From positions 1-36,696 of the forward strand of contig JAIXYV010000120.1 in the NCBI GenBank assembly GCA_027490055.1: a DNA stretch of 36,696 nt, read 5' to 3'. Below, piece after piece: positions 30,512 through 35,842 of this stretch (position 1 is its first letter; each line of letters starts with the position of its first letter). The stretch comes from Bacteroidota bacterium. Lineage in GTDB: Bacteria; Bacteroidota; Bacteroidia; NS11-12g; UBA955. The position numbers and the translations under genes were made by a program. The notes beneath the pieces are model-generated. The model was not told the origin of the DNA, did not search any database, and was given only the letters and a program-made list of their open reading frames with translations.

Positions 30512-30634
30512 TATGTTTGTAGTGTTGAATTAGATACCGCATGTTGTTCAGCAAAGCTAAAACGTGACGACGTGATGTTTCCCAATATTCGATAAGTTTA
30601 AGTAAAAGGAGCCGGTGTAATAGCCGGCTTTTTT
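30512..30634 (+). ncRNA. Candidate small RNA at the end of the paralog array
   Basis: An exact -7 box, TATGTTTG (30512-30519), lies in the 177-nt gap after paralog 3, with only a weak -33 (TTA). About 110 nt later comes a strong terminator. The stretch contains an ACGT/ACGT mini-hairpin and the 13-mer GATAAGTTTAAGT (30591-30603), shared with the candidate RNA before paralog 1. It may equally be only the 3' UTR of paralog 3. Confidence 0.35.
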
Positions 30635-30635
30635 A
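30608..30635. terminator. Terminator between paralog 3 and the CPBP gene
   Basis: AGCCGG (30610-30615) pairs with CCGGCT (30624-30629), loop of 8, followed by a T run on the plus strand. On the minus strand it immediately follows the stop of the CPBP gene, so it may work both ways. Confidence 0.8.
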
Positions 30636-31547
30636 TTGCCTGAACCAGTTGCCGATACATCCGCCTAACTCCATCAGCCAGGCTATTCCGGCATGTACCA
30701 TAATACCACCAAAAATACTTTTGCTGTGGTAGGCAATCACCCCTAAAATAGTCCCACCAAAAAATGAACTGATGGCCTCTCCCATCGGCTTGCCATAATG
30801 TATGCACAAATAAAACGAAGCCATCGGCAAAATTGCTCCCATACCGACATACCTTGTAAATGCCATCACCATAAAACCTCTGAAGAATAACTCAATCGAG
30901 CTAAAATCTATCCCATAAAAAATCTCGTACACCACTACCTTCCATGTCGCAGGCTGATAAGGATTCAACTTATTAAAGCGCGGATAATAGTCGAGGAAGT
31001 CGCTTAAGAAACTTGCTCCAACAATTAGCGGCACCATGCACAGCAACAAGTACCAGTATACCTTCGAGTGATGGTTCTTTAATGAAACCCCATAGAAAGG
31101 CTGATTGCGTCCGCTCAGGTACCACACTAAAAGGAGGGGCAAAACCAGGTACAGCCATCTGAAAACATCATTAAATACCATCCCGTTTAAGACAGCCTGA
31201 TCTGGTTCAGAGATTGCAGCAACCCAGTGATGGTGACGGTAAGTAACGGCTCTAATGGCGAAGATAAAAAAGCTGGAAAGCAAGAGTAAGACAAATCCGG
31301 GTTGTTTCCAGAAACTATAATTTTTAGTAAAGAGACTATAAAGCAGATAGGCAAAAACAGTGTGTACGGCATACAAGGCGACAAAAGCCAGATACTCATC
31401 GACACCATGGCAATTATCTATCATTTTTTGCATACCCAAACCGTAATTGATATAGACACTGATACTACAAAATAACAGCAGAATCAGCCAATGCGCCCAA
31501 TGCTGAGCCATTACAAAGGATTTTAATTGTTGGATAATGGTTTTCAT
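30633..31547 (-). CDS. CPBP-family intramembrane protease-like protein lacking the first motif Glu
   Basis: 304 residues with about eight transmembrane helices and a C-terminal half matching the CPBP/CAAX-protease (Abi) family. Motif 1 is SSIELFFRGF: the second Glu (219) and Arg (223) of EExxxR are present, but the first Glu is Ile. Motif 2 is YLCIH (His250) and motif 3 includes HAGIAW (His285). If the first Glu is the catalytic residue, as in archaeal Rce1, activity is doubtful, although hydrophobic replacements there are, as I recall, common in bacterial members. Its ATG overlaps the stop of the LuxE-like gene by 4 bp (ATGA), so the two are translationally coupled. The substrate is unknown. 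Confidence 0.83.
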   Translation of the reverse strand: MKTIIQQLKSFVMAQHWAHWLILLLFCSISVYINYGLGMQKMIDNCHGVDEYLAFVALYAVHTVFAYLLYSLFTKNYSFWKQPGFVLLLLSSFFIFAIRAVTYRHHHWVAAISEPDQAVLNGMVFNDVFRWLYLVLPLLLVWYLSGRNQPFYGVSLKNHHSKVYWYLLLCMVPLIVGASFLSDFLDYYPRFNKLNPYQPATWKVVVYEIFYGIDFSSIELFFRGFMVMAFTRYVGMGAILPMASFYLCIHYGKPMGEAISSFFGGTILGVIAYHSKSIFGGIMVHAGIAWLMELGGCIGNWFRQ

Positions 31548-32530
31548 ATGACTAATAAATTGCAGCCCCTGGTATCGCTGTAATCGATTCGACCAAGTAT
31601 TTCGAAACTTCCATCATCATATACTTTGCCTAAATCGGAAGTCGATATAAAGGCACACGACTGCAGGTTTGACAAATCGCAGACATTAACAGCACCATGT
31701 CTGTTAAGGAGAGGCACAGAGAACGGATCATTGATCTCTCTAACTGTAATGCGCATCTGAGGCGGACAGAGATAGCGACCATCAGCCAAGGAGTAGGCCT
31801 GAGACAATAGTTCCGTCATACCATACTCGCCCCCCACTGCTGAAACACCAAAAGCATTTTTAAGCACATCGTGAAGTTCGTGTCGGGTGATTTCTTTACG
31901 TCTACCTTTCATGCCACCCGTTTCGATGATGCGGGTATGTTTCAAAGGCAATTGAAACTGCTCTGCAAGATCCAGTAAAGCATAGGTTACGCCCCAAAGT
32001 ATGGTCGGAATTTGTTCAGCTTCATTGATCAACAACTGCTGATGCAAAGCTGCCATATCGTAGAGGTAAAAAGCAGATTGCGGATATTTACTATTGGCAA
32101 TGAAATGGTTAACCTGGTACACCAGAGAAGATTGCTGGCGTTCGAGATAAGAAGGCAAGAGCGCAAGATGGCAGTAGTTTGCAGAATTCCCAAGGGCGTG
32201 GGTAAAAGAGCGGACAAAAGCCTCCTCGTAGCGTTCGGTCGTATCCAGAAAATGCCGACTGACACCTAAGCCAGTGGTACTGCTACTTTCGAAGACCAAT
32301 GCAGGCTCGAAGGCATCCGTCTTAACCTCAAAATTTTTAAAAAACTCAATTGGCAGATAGGGAATCTCAGCCACTTTATTTACATTTGCTACATCTGTTT
32401 GCAGGTAGTTTAAAAACGACCGGTACACTTGGCAATGCTGACTCTGGTATTTGAATACTTCAAGGGCCACAGCGTCGAAAGTAGACTGATTGACAGTTTC
32501 CACCCAAGCTTTCAGACCTTTAATATCCAT
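31544..32530 (-). CDS. LuxE/PaaK-like acyl-protein synthetase or acyltransferase
   Basis: 328-residue protein of the adenylate-forming (ANL) superfamily, LuxE type. LuxE enzymes activate a fatty acid as acyl-AMP and pass it to a protein cysteine. Visible marks are FESSSTTG at 80-87 (phosphate-binding loop), GGEYGMTELLSQ (adenine/AMP motif), and DLGKVYDDGSFEILGRIDYSD, the A8-like hinge region near the C-terminus. No lux genes accompany it, so bioluminescence is not implied; such proteins are widespread in Bacteroidota with unknown substrate. It is coupled to the CPBP membrane gene. Its ATG (32530-32528) overlaps the ATG of the divergent lipoprotein gene, and a TATTTTTG box ends 4 nt upstream. 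Confidence 0.85.
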   Translation of the reverse strand: MDIKGLKAWVETVNQSTFDAVALEVFKYQSQHCQVYRSFLNYLQTDVANVNKVAEIPYLPIEFFKNFEVKTDAFEPALVFESSSTTGLGVSRHFLDTTERYEEAFVRSFTHALGNSANYCHLALLPSYLERQQSSLVYQVNHFIANSKYPQSAFYLYDMAALHQQLLINEAEQIPTILWGVTYALLDLAEQFQLPLKHTRIIETGGMKGRRKEITRHELHDVLKNAFGVSAVGGEYGMTELLSQAYSLADGRYLCPPQMRITVREINDPFSVPLLNRHGAVNVCDLSNLQSCAFISTSDLGKVYDDGSFEILGRIDYSDTRGCNLLVI

Positions 32531-33041
32531 GCTTCAAAAATATATCTTTTTACTTGTAATTGTATGGCTGTCGGGCTGTAAAACCGAAGATTTCGGATTT
32601 CCCGACGAACCTGTCATTACTTTTAAAAGCATGGAACAATACAAACTGAATGGCAGAGATTCGGCAGTAGTCATTGAATTTGATTACACAGACGGCGATG
32701 GCGACATAGGTTTGGAACCATCAGATTCACTGGCCCCGTTTCAGTTCGGCGGACCCTATTTTTACAATTTACAGATTACTGTTTGGGAGGTTGACAACGG
32801 CATTTCCAAACCTTTGTTAATTCCTTCAAGTACAGACACCATAAACTTTAACGACCGCATTAAAACACTCACTCCCAGCGGTAAAAACAAAGCCATTTAC
32901 GGCACCATAAAACTGAACCTTAACGCAAAACCCTATTTTAGTTTGAGTCCCGATTCGATGTTTTACAAAATCCGAATCACCGACCGCAAGCTGCACCGGA
33001 GCAATGAGATTAGTACGCCCGTAAAACCCTTTGTTTTTTAG
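32529..33041 (+). CDS. Hypothetical lipoprotein with DGDGDIG motif
   Basis: 170 residues from the ATG at 32529. The lipoprotein signal MLQKYIFLLVIVWLSGC has Cys17. The mature part has FDYTDGDGDIGL, a recurring motif in small Bacteroidota lipoproteins that looks like a Ca-binding loop, followed by beta strands ending in KIRITDRKLHRSNEIST. An upstream in-frame extension would read through the divergent gene and would bury the signal peptide, so the inner ATG is chosen. It is followed after 7 nt by the DHp-only membrane protein, probably in one operon. Function unknown. Confidence 0.8.
   Translation: MLQKYIFLLVIVWLSGCKTEDFGFPDEPVITFKSMEQYKLNGRDSAVVIEFDYTDGDGDIGLEPSDSLAPFQFGGPYFYNLQITVWEVDNGISKPLLIPSSTDTINFNDRIKTLTPSGKNKAIYGTIKLNLNAKPYFSLSPDSMFYKIRITDRKLHRSNEISTPVKPFVF
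32535..32542 (-). promoter_or_regulatory. -7 box of the LuxE-like gene, inside the divergent gene
   Basis: TATTTTTG on the minus strand is an exact TAnnTTTG. It lies within codons 3-5 of the divergent lipoprotein gene and 4 nt before the LuxE-like ATG, predicting a leaderless message. No good -33 was seen. Confidence 0.45.
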
Positions 33042-33048
33042 TTAGAGT

Positions 33049-33594
33049 ATGAGAAGTAGAAATTACCTGGTTATTATATTGTTGTTTATTGGTTTGAGCC
33101 CTCTAGTTGGACAAACCCCTCTTAACACCTATATCAAAGCCCCGGACACGGCAATCAAATATCCATCGGGACTGAAAAGCAGTGCCAACAACATCGTTTT
33201 GCAGAAAGCCCTGGAAGAAAAGAATAAGGAACTGGCCAGTATCAAAGTTCAGACACAGGCTGCCCATCTCGACGACCTGATGCACCATAAAGAAAGAGAA
33301 GTATTTGTTATTGGCATTGCATTATTGCTTGCACTGGTTCTGGTGATCTATTATTTATACAACAAACGTGCGCAGCTGCACAACAAAACACTTTCCAGTA
33401 TCAGTCAGTATCAATCGCATGAGTTGCGATCTCCACTTGTTAAAATTATGGGTTTGGTAGCTGAACTGAAAAAATCTGAAGCGATAAAAGATCCAGAGTC
33501 AAAGAAACAATTGCAAATGCTGGAAACCTCAGCAGAAGAGCTGGACAATGTCATCCATAAAATTGTAAGGAAATTGGGCGAAAATAGAGATTAA
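33049..33594 (+). CDS. Membrane protein with a histidine-kinase phospho-acceptor (DHp) domain but no ATPase domain
   Basis: 181 residues. A signal peptide (1-21), a periplasmic part with a coiled-coil-like segment (KALEEKNKELASIKVQTQAA, about 53-72), one transmembrane helix (about 85-104), and a cytoplasmic HisKA-like hairpin with the H-box SHELRSPL and His124. The protein ends right after the second DHp helix; no N, G1 or G2 boxes follow in any reading of the downstream DNA, which is repeat-rich and non-coding. It may be a phosphotransfer partner of another kinase, or the remnant of a TPR-type histidine kinase of Bacteroidota. The preceding lipoprotein gene is 7 nt away. Confidence 0.8.
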   Translation: MRSRNYLVIILLFIGLSPLVGQTPLNTYIKAPDTAIKYPSGLKSSANNIVLQKALEEKNKELASIKVQTQAAHLDDLMHHKEREVFVIGIALLLALVLVIYYLYNKRAQLHNKTLSSISQYQSHELRSPLVKIMGLVAELKKSEAIKDPESKKQLQMLETSAEELDNVIHKIVRKLGENRD

Positions 33595-33762: not shown

Positions 33763-33832
33763 ATTAACGATTAACCATTAACCAATAACCATTAACCAAT
33801 AACCATTAACCAATAACCATTAACCATTAACC
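33763..33832. repeat. Tandem heptamer array (ATTAACC/AATAACC), ten copies
   Basis: Ten consecutive 7-bp units from 33763 to 33832: ATTAACG once, then ATTAACC twice, then AATAACC and ATTAACC alternating through three rounds, then a final ATTAACC, followed by a partial AACC. The alternating part gives a 14-bp period. It lies immediately after the dcd stop. Just before it, a CCTAATTCCTAT unit is repeated at about 33738-33763. The whole 33595-33835 gap contains no ORF and also has the small palindrome ATGCC-GCG-GGCAT (33692-33704). Confidence 0.9.
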
Positions 33833-33835
33833 AAC

Positions 33836-34372
33836 CTAGAATTTATTCTTCCACATCATGCTCTCTACAGGACGAATGGTGCGGGTATTGTACTTGGCAT
33901 TTTTCTTTTTATTGTACATGGTTTTTACATCGCCGTTTACAACAAAATAGATAAGCTGACCGATAGGCATGCCGTAATAGATTCTAACTGGCTGGGCAAC
34001 GCTAATTTCCAGAGTCCATGTATTGCAAAAGCCCACATCTCCTTTACCTGCAGTAGCGTGAATATCAATACCTAAACGACCGGTACTGCTTTTACCTTCT
34101 AAGAATGGCACGTGAGCATGCGTCTCTGTGTACTCTTCAGTAACACCCAGATATAAAACACCAGGCTGAAGAACATACCCTTCCTGAGGAATTTCGAAAT
34201 GATCAATCTTATTGTGAGATTTAGCATCCAGAACTCTGTCTTTGTAGGTTGCCAGATACCTGCCCAAATGCACATCGTAGCTGTTGGTTCCTAAACATTC
34301 TGGTCGGTAAGGCTCAATTAAAATCGTTCCTTTTTCTATTTCGTCAAGTATTTGGTAGTCTGTTAATATCAT
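33836..34372 (-). CDS. dcd: dCTP deaminase
   Basis: 178 residues. Deaminates dCTP to dUTP in pyrimidine deoxynucleotide synthesis, or directly to dUMP if bifunctional; the two types cannot be told apart here. Signature regions are PECLGTNSYDVHLG near 24-37, FLEGKSSTGRLGIDIHATAG near 90-109 with the conserved Ser, Arg and His residues, and GFCNTWTLEIS with the catalytic Glu, then GMPIGQLIYF. Length and order match the Dcd/DUT trimer family. Its ATG overlaps the stop of the WD40 gene by 4 bp (ATGA), so it is translationally coupled to that gene. The stop codon is directly followed by the heptamer repeats. Confidence 0.95.
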   Translation of the reverse strand: MILTDYQILDEIEKGTILIEPYRPECLGTNSYDVHLGRYLATYKDRVLDAKSHNKIDHFEIPQEGYVLQPGVLYLGVTEEYTETHAHVPFLEGKSSTGRLGIDIHATAGKGDVGFCNTWTLEISVAQPVRIYYGMPIGQLIYFVVNGDVKTMYNKKKNAKYNTRTIRPVESMMWKNKF

Positions 34373-35247
34373 TTCTCTTGTATTTCAAAGCACTTTAGCG
34401 TGCGGTCATCACTGCACGAAATAATAGTGTTTTTATCAATCCACAAAATTTTATTCACTGAACTTGTGTGAGCCCCATATTTTTCGGCACTTATCACTTT
34501 CAACAGCTCGCCCGTCTTAGTCTCCCATAGCTTTATCATCTTATCCATTCCTGAACTCATTACCCAGCGACCATCTTCACTCATTGCAAGTCTGTGAATA
34601 TGCAGCAAATGTGCCTTCACTTCTCTGACACAATCTTTGCCTTTGTACCACTTTAAAACGGCATCTCTGCCACCACAAATCAACTGATCGCCACTTGCAT
34701 CATAACTCAAAGCAAACACCGAATTGTCAAAGGCCTCAATGATACCCTCAAGTTGCAGCGCATGATTCAGCAAATACACTTTGCCATCTGAAGCGCCTAT
34801 CGCATAGCCGTCTTTAACAGCAATGATAATGCGCAGAGATTTACTGCTCAATTGAATCTTTCTTTTGACGTCAAACGCCCCATCAACTTCATACAGACAG
34901 CCATCACCTGCTACAATTAAGGCGCCATCGGTAACTGGCACAACTTCAAAAATGGGCGCGTCGCATAATTGTAGATGTTTCTTCAATGAAAAATCTTCAA
35001 GAAAGAACACCGAGAATAAACCAGAACGGGTACCGGAATACAAGTACCTGTTATCGTTTGCCAGAGTGTACACCGCCTGATGATGCCTGATGACTAAGTT
35101 GCCATCCGCTTCGCCCATGTGCCAGCATACAATCATACCATCGCCTGCGCCGCTAAAAATTCTTTTAGCAGAATGTTCATAACACAAGGCATAAATGGCT
35201 TGGGAATGTCCGGCAAACTCGCGTATTTTTACAACTTCTACTGACAT
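34369..35247 (-). CDS. WD40-repeat protein coupled to dcd
   Basis: 292 residues, cytoplasmic, with no signal peptide. It is built of about six or seven WD40-like units, for example REFAGHSQAIYALCYEHSAK, GAGDGMIVCW, CGGRDAVLKWYKG, HLLHIHRLAMSEDGRWVMSS, GMDKMIKLWE and ISCSDDRTLKCFE, fitting one seven-bladed propeller. WD40 propellers are interaction platforms and no catalytic role is implied. It overlaps dcd by 4 bp downstream. Upstream, its ATG (35247-35245) overlaps the ATG of the divergent phosphopantetheinyl transferase gene. Confidence 0.88.
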   Translation of the reverse strand: MSVEVVKIREFAGHSQAIYALCYEHSAKRIFSGAGDGMIVCWHMGEADGNLVIRHHQAVYTLANDNRYLYSGTRSGLFSVFFLEDFSLKKHLQLCDAPIFEVVPVTDGALIVAGDGCLYEVDGAFDVKRKIQLSSKSLRIIIAVKDGYAIGASDGKVYLLNHALQLEGIIEAFDNSVFALSYDASGDQLICGGRDAVLKWYKGKDCVREVKAHLLHIHRLAMSEDGRWVMSSGMDKMIKLWETKTGELLKVISAEKYGAHTSSVNKILWIDKNTIISCSDDRTLKCFEIQEK

Positions 35248-35842
35248 GCCACTGATACTGGAACGACAAATCGGGACTGCAAAGAAAATAGGCGTTTGGC
35301 AAATAACCGAGCCAATTGATTTTTTTCTTGAACAACTTGTTCAGGCAGATATTCCTTCCATTAGTCGAAAGCGTTTGTTGGAGCAATCTTGTTCCGCTCA
35401 TCTGCTCAACACCCTGCTTAACAACACTGTTCATCATCACTTAGATAAAGACGCTAATGGCAAGCCTTTTTTAAAAGACCATTCGTATAGCGTCAGTTTT
35501 AGCCACTCTAAAGACATGGTGGCTTGTTTAATCGATACCGAAGGCGGACCAACCGGCATTGACATCGAACATACCAGAGAAAGTATACGGGCGATTGCAC
35601 CGAAATTTGTATCAGAAAAAGAAGGATTATTAGAAAAAGATTACTTGCATTTTCATCTTATTTGGGGAGCAAAAGAAGTTTTATACAAAATTTATTCACT
35701 AAAGGAACTCGACTTCCTGGAACATCTTTCAGTTGATTTTCAGAAAGATATAATTGGCCATATCCATAAAAACGGCTATTCTGCCTCTTACAAACTTCAA
35801 TTTGAAGAACTGAATAATTTTATTTTAGTATGGAACATTTGA
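35246..35842 (+). CDS. 4'-phosphopantetheinyl transferase family protein
   Basis: 198 residues from the ATG at 35246 (MPLILERQIGTAKKIGVW). Transfers phosphopantetheine from CoA to a carrier-protein serine. The Mg-binding motif GIDIEH is at 104-109 and WGAKEVLYK at 140-148, the two hallmarks of the Sfp/AcpT-type superfamily; YSVSFSHSKDMVACLI precedes them. It may serve as the holo-ACP synthase for fatty acid synthesis or for a specialised carrier; no carrier or synthase gene is near. An upstream in-frame extension (from 35195) lies wholly in the WD40 gene and is rejected. The start codon overlaps that of the divergent WD40 gene. Its TGA forms part of the downstream inverted repeat. Confidence 0.9.
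   Translation: MPLILERQIGTAKKIGVWQITEPIDFFLEQLVQADIPSISRKRLLEQSCSAHLLNTLLNNTVHHHLDKDANGKPFLKDHSYSVSFSHSKDMVACLIDTEGGPTGIDIEHTRESIRAIAPKFVSEKEGLLEKDYLHFHLIWGAKEVLYKIYSLKELDFLEHLSVDFQKDIIGHIHKNGYSASYKLQFEELNNFILVWNI

Follow-up and report, generated by a model that had tools for sequence, protein, structure and literature searches.

Excludons are divergent neighbours whose mRNAs overlap in antisense. Divergent genes that themselves overlap are strongly under-represented according to the available text of PMC2174442, where this rarity is ascribed to upstream regulatory elements, and our own arithmetic, by subtraction from the tables published there, implies that, of 331 divergent overlaps in 58 species, 57 do not exceed 4 nt, nearly all of them in the phase of CATG. 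Bidirectional promoters form another related class, in which transcription in both directions relies on a single pseudo-symmetrical sequence (Warman et al. 2026, PMC12825309, available text). In Bacteroidota, sigma-ABfr promoters carry TTTG or TAnnTTTG (available text of PMC6847099 and PMC7366714), and in F. johnsoniae this −7 consensus, TAnnTTTG, occupies positions −12 to −5, with a −33 element reported as much less evident (PMC6847099, available text), so that an element whose first T stands 12 nt upstream of the ATG would mark a leaderless gene. Here we analysed a pair of divergent Bacteroidota genes that share their start codons, have no DNA between them and carry candidate −7 elements in each other's coding sequence.

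Shared start codons and their conservation

The window (the whole stretch of DNA analysed, 36,696 nt) lies on contig C115 of the home genome, a 3.02 Mb assembly of 121 contigs. A single CATG at 35245–35248 supplies both start codons of a divergent pair, the ATG of a WD40-repeat protein at 35247–35245 on the minus strand and that of a 4'-phosphopantetheinyl transferase superfamily protein (PPTase) at 35246–35248 on the plus strand. This had been stated correctly in a preliminary description of the DNA, and the other CATG pair listed there, a LuxE-like and a lipoprotein-like gene, is real as well. The genes and the second shared site are as follows.

34369..35247, minus strand: WD40-repeat beta-propeller protein, 292 aa (Pfam PF00400)
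35246..35842, plus strand: 4'-phosphopantetheinyl transferase superfamily protein (PPTase), 198 aa (PF01648 and catalytic residues)
31544..32530, minus strand: LuxE-like acyl-protein synthetase, 328 aa (PF04443, 36.4 bits, cut-off 24.9)
32529..33041, plus strand: small lipoprotein-like protein, 170 aa (LSGC motif near the N-terminus)
32528..32531, no strand: CATG shared by the LuxE-like/lipoprotein pair, read directly from the sequence

The WD40 protein scores 86.4 bits against a PF00400 gathering score of 27. The PPTase reaches 23.0 bits with PF01648, slightly below the cut-off of 25, and its residues G104, D106, E108, W140, K143, E144 and K148 are invariant in 23 aligned sequences. GxDxE and W..KE...K, which we take to be the catalytic motifs of PPTases, are thus present as invariant columns. 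The lipoprotein-like protein matched nothing in Pfam or NCBIfam at E 0.001 and is called lipoprotein-like from its LSGC motif. A third pair, a hexapeptide-repeat protein (hexapep) and an amidohydrolase by their Pfam identities, is located on home contig C70 (L183:4838–6575, CATG at L183:5349).

In the WD40/PPTase pair the opposite ATGs overlap by 2 bp and both reading frames encode conserved proteins that start there. From 35246 the PPTase has 198 aa, and the longest ORF in this frame begins 17 codons further upstream at ATG 35195, the start picked by our homemade gene caller. As M1 and P2 are nearly invariant among the 23 PPTases (alignment rows were cut at the homologous start codon and GTG or TTG there is shown as M) and an ATG at codon −17 is confined to the home genome (1 of 13 same-genus loci), the start at 35246 is favoured. 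In the home genome no in-frame start lies upstream of that of the WD40 gene, and the WD40 homology extends to residue 1 in most same-genus loci.

The search for orthologues covered 59 genomes, 17 of them from the same genus with the home genome included. An orthologue of the PPTase was found in 13 of these 17 (three gave no match, and one weak match was excluded), and 11 of the 13 loci have the WD40/PPTase CATG in common; the two others start at codons close by, in L005 with a WD40 ATG two codons upstream and in L008, by our reading of the junction, with a TTG. The LuxE/lipoprotein CATG is common to 12 of 13 same-genus loci, with four of the 17 genomes lacking a match, and that of the hexapep/amidohydrolase pair occurs in at least 11 of 16 loci, three more junctions being read as CATGATG and two as CATTATG. 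Across the genus the proteins of the start-sharing pairs average 40–72% identity to the home copy. In six relatives (G001, G002, G005, G008, G013 and G014) a single contig carries both pairs of the window, separated by about 1.9–2.2 kb, so the neighbourhood itself is conserved.

Outside the genus, three of the six loci cut out from other genera of the family have the CATG in common (L019 and L024 from one genus, L025 from another). In the sister family the junctions read as [GT]TGCCAY, a GTG or TTG start of the PPTase overlapping the WD40 start, in nine of the ten loci with a WD40 gene. A scan of named genomes gave at least 80 PPTase loci, of which three belong to this genus and the other 77 were used. 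Among these loci as listed, 38 have a WD40 gene head to head within 500 nt of the PPTase gene, including Hymenobacter, Pontibacter, Rufibacter, Marivirga, Fulvivirga, Lacihabitans and many Saprospiraceae, and in the remaining 39 none was detected in this position, a few times owing to contig ends. The start-to-start gap of the 38 listed loci has a median of 103 nt, and only L136 and L157 have no spacer (gap −7, of the sister-family type). Since the head-to-head pair is widespread and elsewhere mostly has a spacer, the divergent neighbourhood seems to be old in Bacteroidota, and it is probably in this order that the spacer disappeared.

Several other features of the window were recorded. Co-directional overlaps of 4 bases, the usual length for stop/start coupling, occur at 31544–31547, where a CPBP protease-like gene follows the LuxE-like gene, and at 34369–34372, where a dCTP deaminase gene follows the WD40 gene. 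The CPBP-family protein (30633–31547) has as its best NCBIfam match the archaeomyxosortase model MrtA, with 55 bits and thus below the cut-off of 200. A 181-aa protein at 33049–33594 has a HisKA domain only (29.1 bits) and is apparently too short for an ATPase domain; it is apparently a truncated kinase or a phosphotransfer protein, and was matched in only one of the 13 same-genus LuxE loci scanned at the settings used. Between this kinase-like gene and the dCTP deaminase gene, an intergenic run of near-identical taaccattaaccaa units extends over 33765–33835.

Candidate −7 elements in the codons of the partner

In the home genome TAnnTTTG is found at 172 sites in 385 upstream regions (from genes preceded by 100 nt or more of free DNA) compared to 32 in shuffles, and no excess of Shine-Dalgarno sequences was found in the same regions (14 versus 18 in shuffles). 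In antisense coding windows of 60 nt the strict motif has a frequency of 1.9% (237 of 12,212). Within 60 nt upstream of the start it is present in all 13 LuxE loci (12 times at exactly −12), in 14 of 14 hexapep, 13 of 14 amidohydrolase and 10 of 10 sister-family PPTase loci. It is absent from this range in all 13 PPTase and all 13 WD40 loci of the genus and in the ten WD40 loci of the sister family, and occurs in one of the 13 lipoprotein loci. The only strict site within 150 nt at the WD40/PPTase junction is one for WD40 in L011, and one mismatch was allowed only once the strict search had failed at this junction.

With this tolerance TAnnTTTG was slid over the antisense strand of whole-gene codon alignments, and a match with at most one mismatch was required in every orthologue. 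Each of the six start-sharing genes has exactly one such position out of 500–1,217 tested, and all six lie within the first 150 nt and point out of the gene into the partner, at 16 nt (WD40), 34 nt (PPTase), 142 nt (LuxE), 6 nt (lipoprotein), 35 nt (hexapep) and 25 nt (amidohydrolase) from the ATG. The matches comprise 12 of 12 WD40 orthologues (L003 being cut by a contig end), 13 of 13 for PPTase, 13 of 13 for both LuxE and lipoprotein, all strict, and 14 of 14 for both hexapep (13 strict) and amidohydrolase (all strict), whose alignments hold 14 of the 16 loci; as the orthologues are related, 13 of 13 does not mean 13 independent events. If the strict motif is required in at least 90% of the orthologues, four of the six genes again give one position each, the same as before, and the WD40 and PPTase alignments give none. 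From one hundred permuted motifs, 0.64 matches in total are expected in the first 150 nt of the same six genes versus the six observed. Six control genes had no match in the first 150 nt in the same scan; elsewhere, two of the controls have an all-orthologue match on the antisense strand and one has a match on the sense strand. The elements of the two pairs in the window are listed below.

35224..35231, plus strand: candidate −7 element for the PPTase gene, TATTTTTA, one mismatch, in WD40 codons; predicted transcription start 35236, leader 10 nt
35280..35287, minus strand: candidate −7 element for the WD40 gene, TTTCTTTG, one mismatch, in PPTase codons; predicted transcription start 35275, leader 28 nt
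32535..32542, minus strand: −7 element for the LuxE-like gene, TATTTTTG, strict, in lipoprotein codons; T at −12, predicted leaderless
32381..32388, plus strand: −7 element for the lipoprotein gene, TACATTTG, strict, in the LuxE-like gene; predicted transcription start 32393, leader 136 nt

The element pointing towards the PPTase gene is found at −22 in all 13 same-genus loci, each time with one mismatch and in three spellings (TATTTTTA, TACCTTCG and TATATTTA). At the same WD40 position, all 12 loci of the sister-family type (ten of family f2 together with L136 and L157, assigned by their junctions) have a strict TAnnTTTG, also in three spellings. Only one of 18 spacer-bearing loci from other lineages, those with the shortest of 36 gaps above zero, comes within one mismatch there, and as these loci span a much wider diversity than the genus sets we take their lack of an all-row match as weak evidence. 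All 13 same-genus loci carry the element towards the WD40 gene at −40, always spelled alike, and none of 11 sister-family loci comes within one mismatch there. Given this invariant spelling and the absence from the sister family, this element could also be explained by conserved AKK codons and thus by protein constraint. The lipoprotein element, which lies at −148 and was found by the later whole-gene scan, matches strictly in all 13 loci, in three or more spellings, and in the home genome both elements of the hexapep/amidohydrolase pair are strict and lie within the codons of the other gene. Compared to the LuxE, lipoprotein, hexapep and amidohydrolase genes with their strict sigma-ABfr motif, the elements at the WD40/PPTase junction, with one mismatch each, are the weakest of the six.

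Leaders and transcript overlaps follow by arithmetic from the positions of the −7 elements. For the third pair of the home genome the predicted leaders are 19 nt (hexapep) and 29 nt (amidohydrolase), with a transcript overlap of 50 nt. The predicted PPTase and WD40 transcripts overlap by 40 nt (35236–35275) with both start codons inside, and the LuxE-like transcript is predicted to start at the gene's own A (32530, leader 0 nt) and to overlap that of the lipoprotein gene by 138 nt.

Synonymous conservation in codons 2–20 is in excess in five of the overlapped genes (p 0.0002–0.006; LuxE 0.29). The controls PfkB (0.0096), acyl-CoA dehydrogenase (0.011), dcd (0.0004) and an ABC gene, the PfkB partner (0.0038, resting on three columns and speaking against the promoter reading if counted), are also in excess, and an aminotransferase (0.52), LplA (0.50) and CPBP (0.78) are not; the histidine-kinase neighbour offered a single orthologue and the third control pair, L042, was left out. 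Since several control genes show the same excess, we keep the codon conservation near the starts as weak support for promoters.

Chance, compaction and start calling

Genes of the home genome were called with a homemade codon-based caller in 1,314,793 bases (44%), a non-random sample chosen by contig number and consisting mostly of contig starts, which led to 1,001 genes and 141 divergent pairs. CATG pairs were called four times, and three of them are credible (WD40/PPTase, LuxE-like/lipoprotein and hexapeptide protein/amidohydrolase), so that outside the window one further credible pair was found in 1.28 Mb sampled. The fourth (L043, an aminotransferase and a 2143-aa protein) was rejected as spurious: its plus-strand start is not conserved and the frame from the shared ATG soon meets a stop in several same-genus relatives. 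Pairs called in G013 and G008, from stretches partly chosen for holding known CATG pairs, were not counted as new as they resemble orthologues of the known three in size and place, and L091–L093, apparently duplicate records of relatives already included, were excluded from the counts. CATG calls were also made in the other Bacteroidota loci L130 and L144; at L144:9839 (Hymenobacter edaphi) a possible CATG would join the WD40 start to an extended PPTase start, where the spacer had otherwise been put at 127 nt.

At the 56 other feasible offsets between −30 and +30 there are 12 pair-offset combinations, and under a flat null across offsets the four called pairs, with 0.21 expected, would look remarkable. 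Because CATG fixes only four bases, as against six for every other non-overlapping ATG/ATG spacing, not 0.21 but 2.37 pairs are expected once this palindrome economy is considered (P(>=4) = 0.21, P(>=3) = 0.42). Relative to the mean CAT...ATG spacing, the frequency of CATG in this DNA is 10.1-fold overall and 11.1-fold close to divergent junctions. The preliminary description had taken its two pairs to suggest a genome-wide trait and not a single accident, and had proposed to count CATG pairs against chance. On 44% of the genome the result, three credible pairs and four called among 141, is no higher than chance, and the genome-wide trait has to be given up; what stands of the other statement is that both pairs are kept across most of the genus.

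Plain sequence economy is the alternative that survives best. CATG would then be a chance outcome of close divergent genes that is kept by the need for start codons, without any promoter significance, and the 10–11-fold frequency of CATG, the expected number of pairs and the short overlaps counted from the tables of PMC2174442 all agree with it. We accept this for the count, but it leaves unexplained why all six genes have a single conserved antisense −7 element, and as a full explanation we regard it as rather unlikely.

A trait of genome-wide compaction with leaderless starts, as proposed in the preliminary description, appears highly improbable to us. It is true that a leaderless-looking class exists, as TAnnTTTG peaks at exactly −12 in 14 of the 385 upstream regions, and at the motif level the LuxE-like gene is predicted to belong to it (−12 in 12 of 13 loci). 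However, the WD40 and PPTase genes have their one-mismatch sites at −40 and −22 (13 of 13 loci each) and none at −12. Only one of the six start-sharing genes is predicted to be leaderless, in line with the mostly leadered mRNAs of F. johnsoniae (87% of the leaders are over 10 nt, PMC6847099, available text) and B. thetaiotaomicron (about 3.7% of the 5' UTRs are under 10 nt, in the published text as available). Against compaction also stand a CATG count at expectation and divergent gaps with a median of 149 nt, only 14 of 141 being 30 nt or shorter.

That one gene of the pair begins internally and no genuine overlap exists was true for L043, and one study judged all 75 divergent overlaps longer than 60 bp to be annotation errors (PMC2478687, available text), but with the nearly invariant M1 and P2 of the PPTases and a WD40 homology up to residue 1 we give mis-called starts hardly any weight here.

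Proposed arrangement and comparison with known systems

For six genes we have found a shared and conserved CATG together with one fixed 5'-proximal antisense −7-like element in all orthologues examined, and each gene's promoter appears to be written in the 5' codons of its partner. We therefore prefer, and consider probable, a head-to-head pair without intergenic DNA, in which the starts are locked in a palindromic CATG and each sigma-ABfr-type promoter lies inside the partner's 5' codons. The −7-like elements would be working promoters, and RNA polymerase on each strand would start inside the partner gene, giving leaders of about 10 nt (PPTase) and 28 nt (WD40), 5' ends that are complementary over about 40 nt across both start codons and a translation initiation that may be independent of Shine-Dalgarno sequences. 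Such a pair may have arisen from the old divergent Bacteroidota neighbourhood, which usually has a spacer, by loss of this spacer in the order, after which the promoters would have come to rest in coding DNA. As the cheapest arrangement, CATG would have been reached by chance, and it might then have been retained through the mutual protection of the two start codons and the constraint that each promoter puts on the partner's codons.

It could also be that start-sharing pairs are zero-spacer miniature excludons with complementary first 40–138 nt, in which transcription of one gene shuts the other via polymerase collision between face-to-face promoters and pairing of the leaders. We consider this distinctly unlikely, but if true, a protein's codons would dictate how its neighbour is expressed, a heritable constraint on protein sequence that is of regulatory origin.

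Promoters within the partner's codons, the reading we prefer, suggest a way round the room that upstream control elements need, as both would be stored in the 5' codons of the other gene. If the promoter claim is true, the pairs show cleanly how regulation can constrain coding sequence, and CATG together with an antisense TAnnTTTG might serve as a rule for finding more of them. The null model for start-codon overlaps is corrected as well, with CATG in this DNA outnumbering the average other spacing 10–11-fold. In the literature searched, as far as its available text extends, we recognised no description of CATG-sharing pairs with promoters in the partner's codons.

Among the known systems, the excludon is similar in the antisense overlap of divergent neighbours' mRNAs, which is predicted here, and differs in that the predicted overlaps of 40, 138 and 50 nt lie in coding DNA without a spacer and without a long 5' UTR, save for the lipoprotein gene. 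The short divergent overlaps of phase 123:213 in PMC2174442 include, by our own reading of its available text, the 2-base overlap of start codons; unlike the overlaps described there, the present ones have candidate regulatory elements located in the partner's codons and conserved in the genus. The −7 consensus is the one used by sigma-ABfr promoters (PMC6847099, PMC7366714, available text), although here it runs antisense in coding sequence and has one mismatch in each element of the WD40/PPTase junction. As in bidirectional promoters (PMC12825309, available text), two opposed transcription starts, predicted in our case, are placed on short DNA where polymerases could compete, but instead of a single sequence there are two separate facing −7 elements, whose first Ts are 63 bp apart and whose predicted transcripts overlap.
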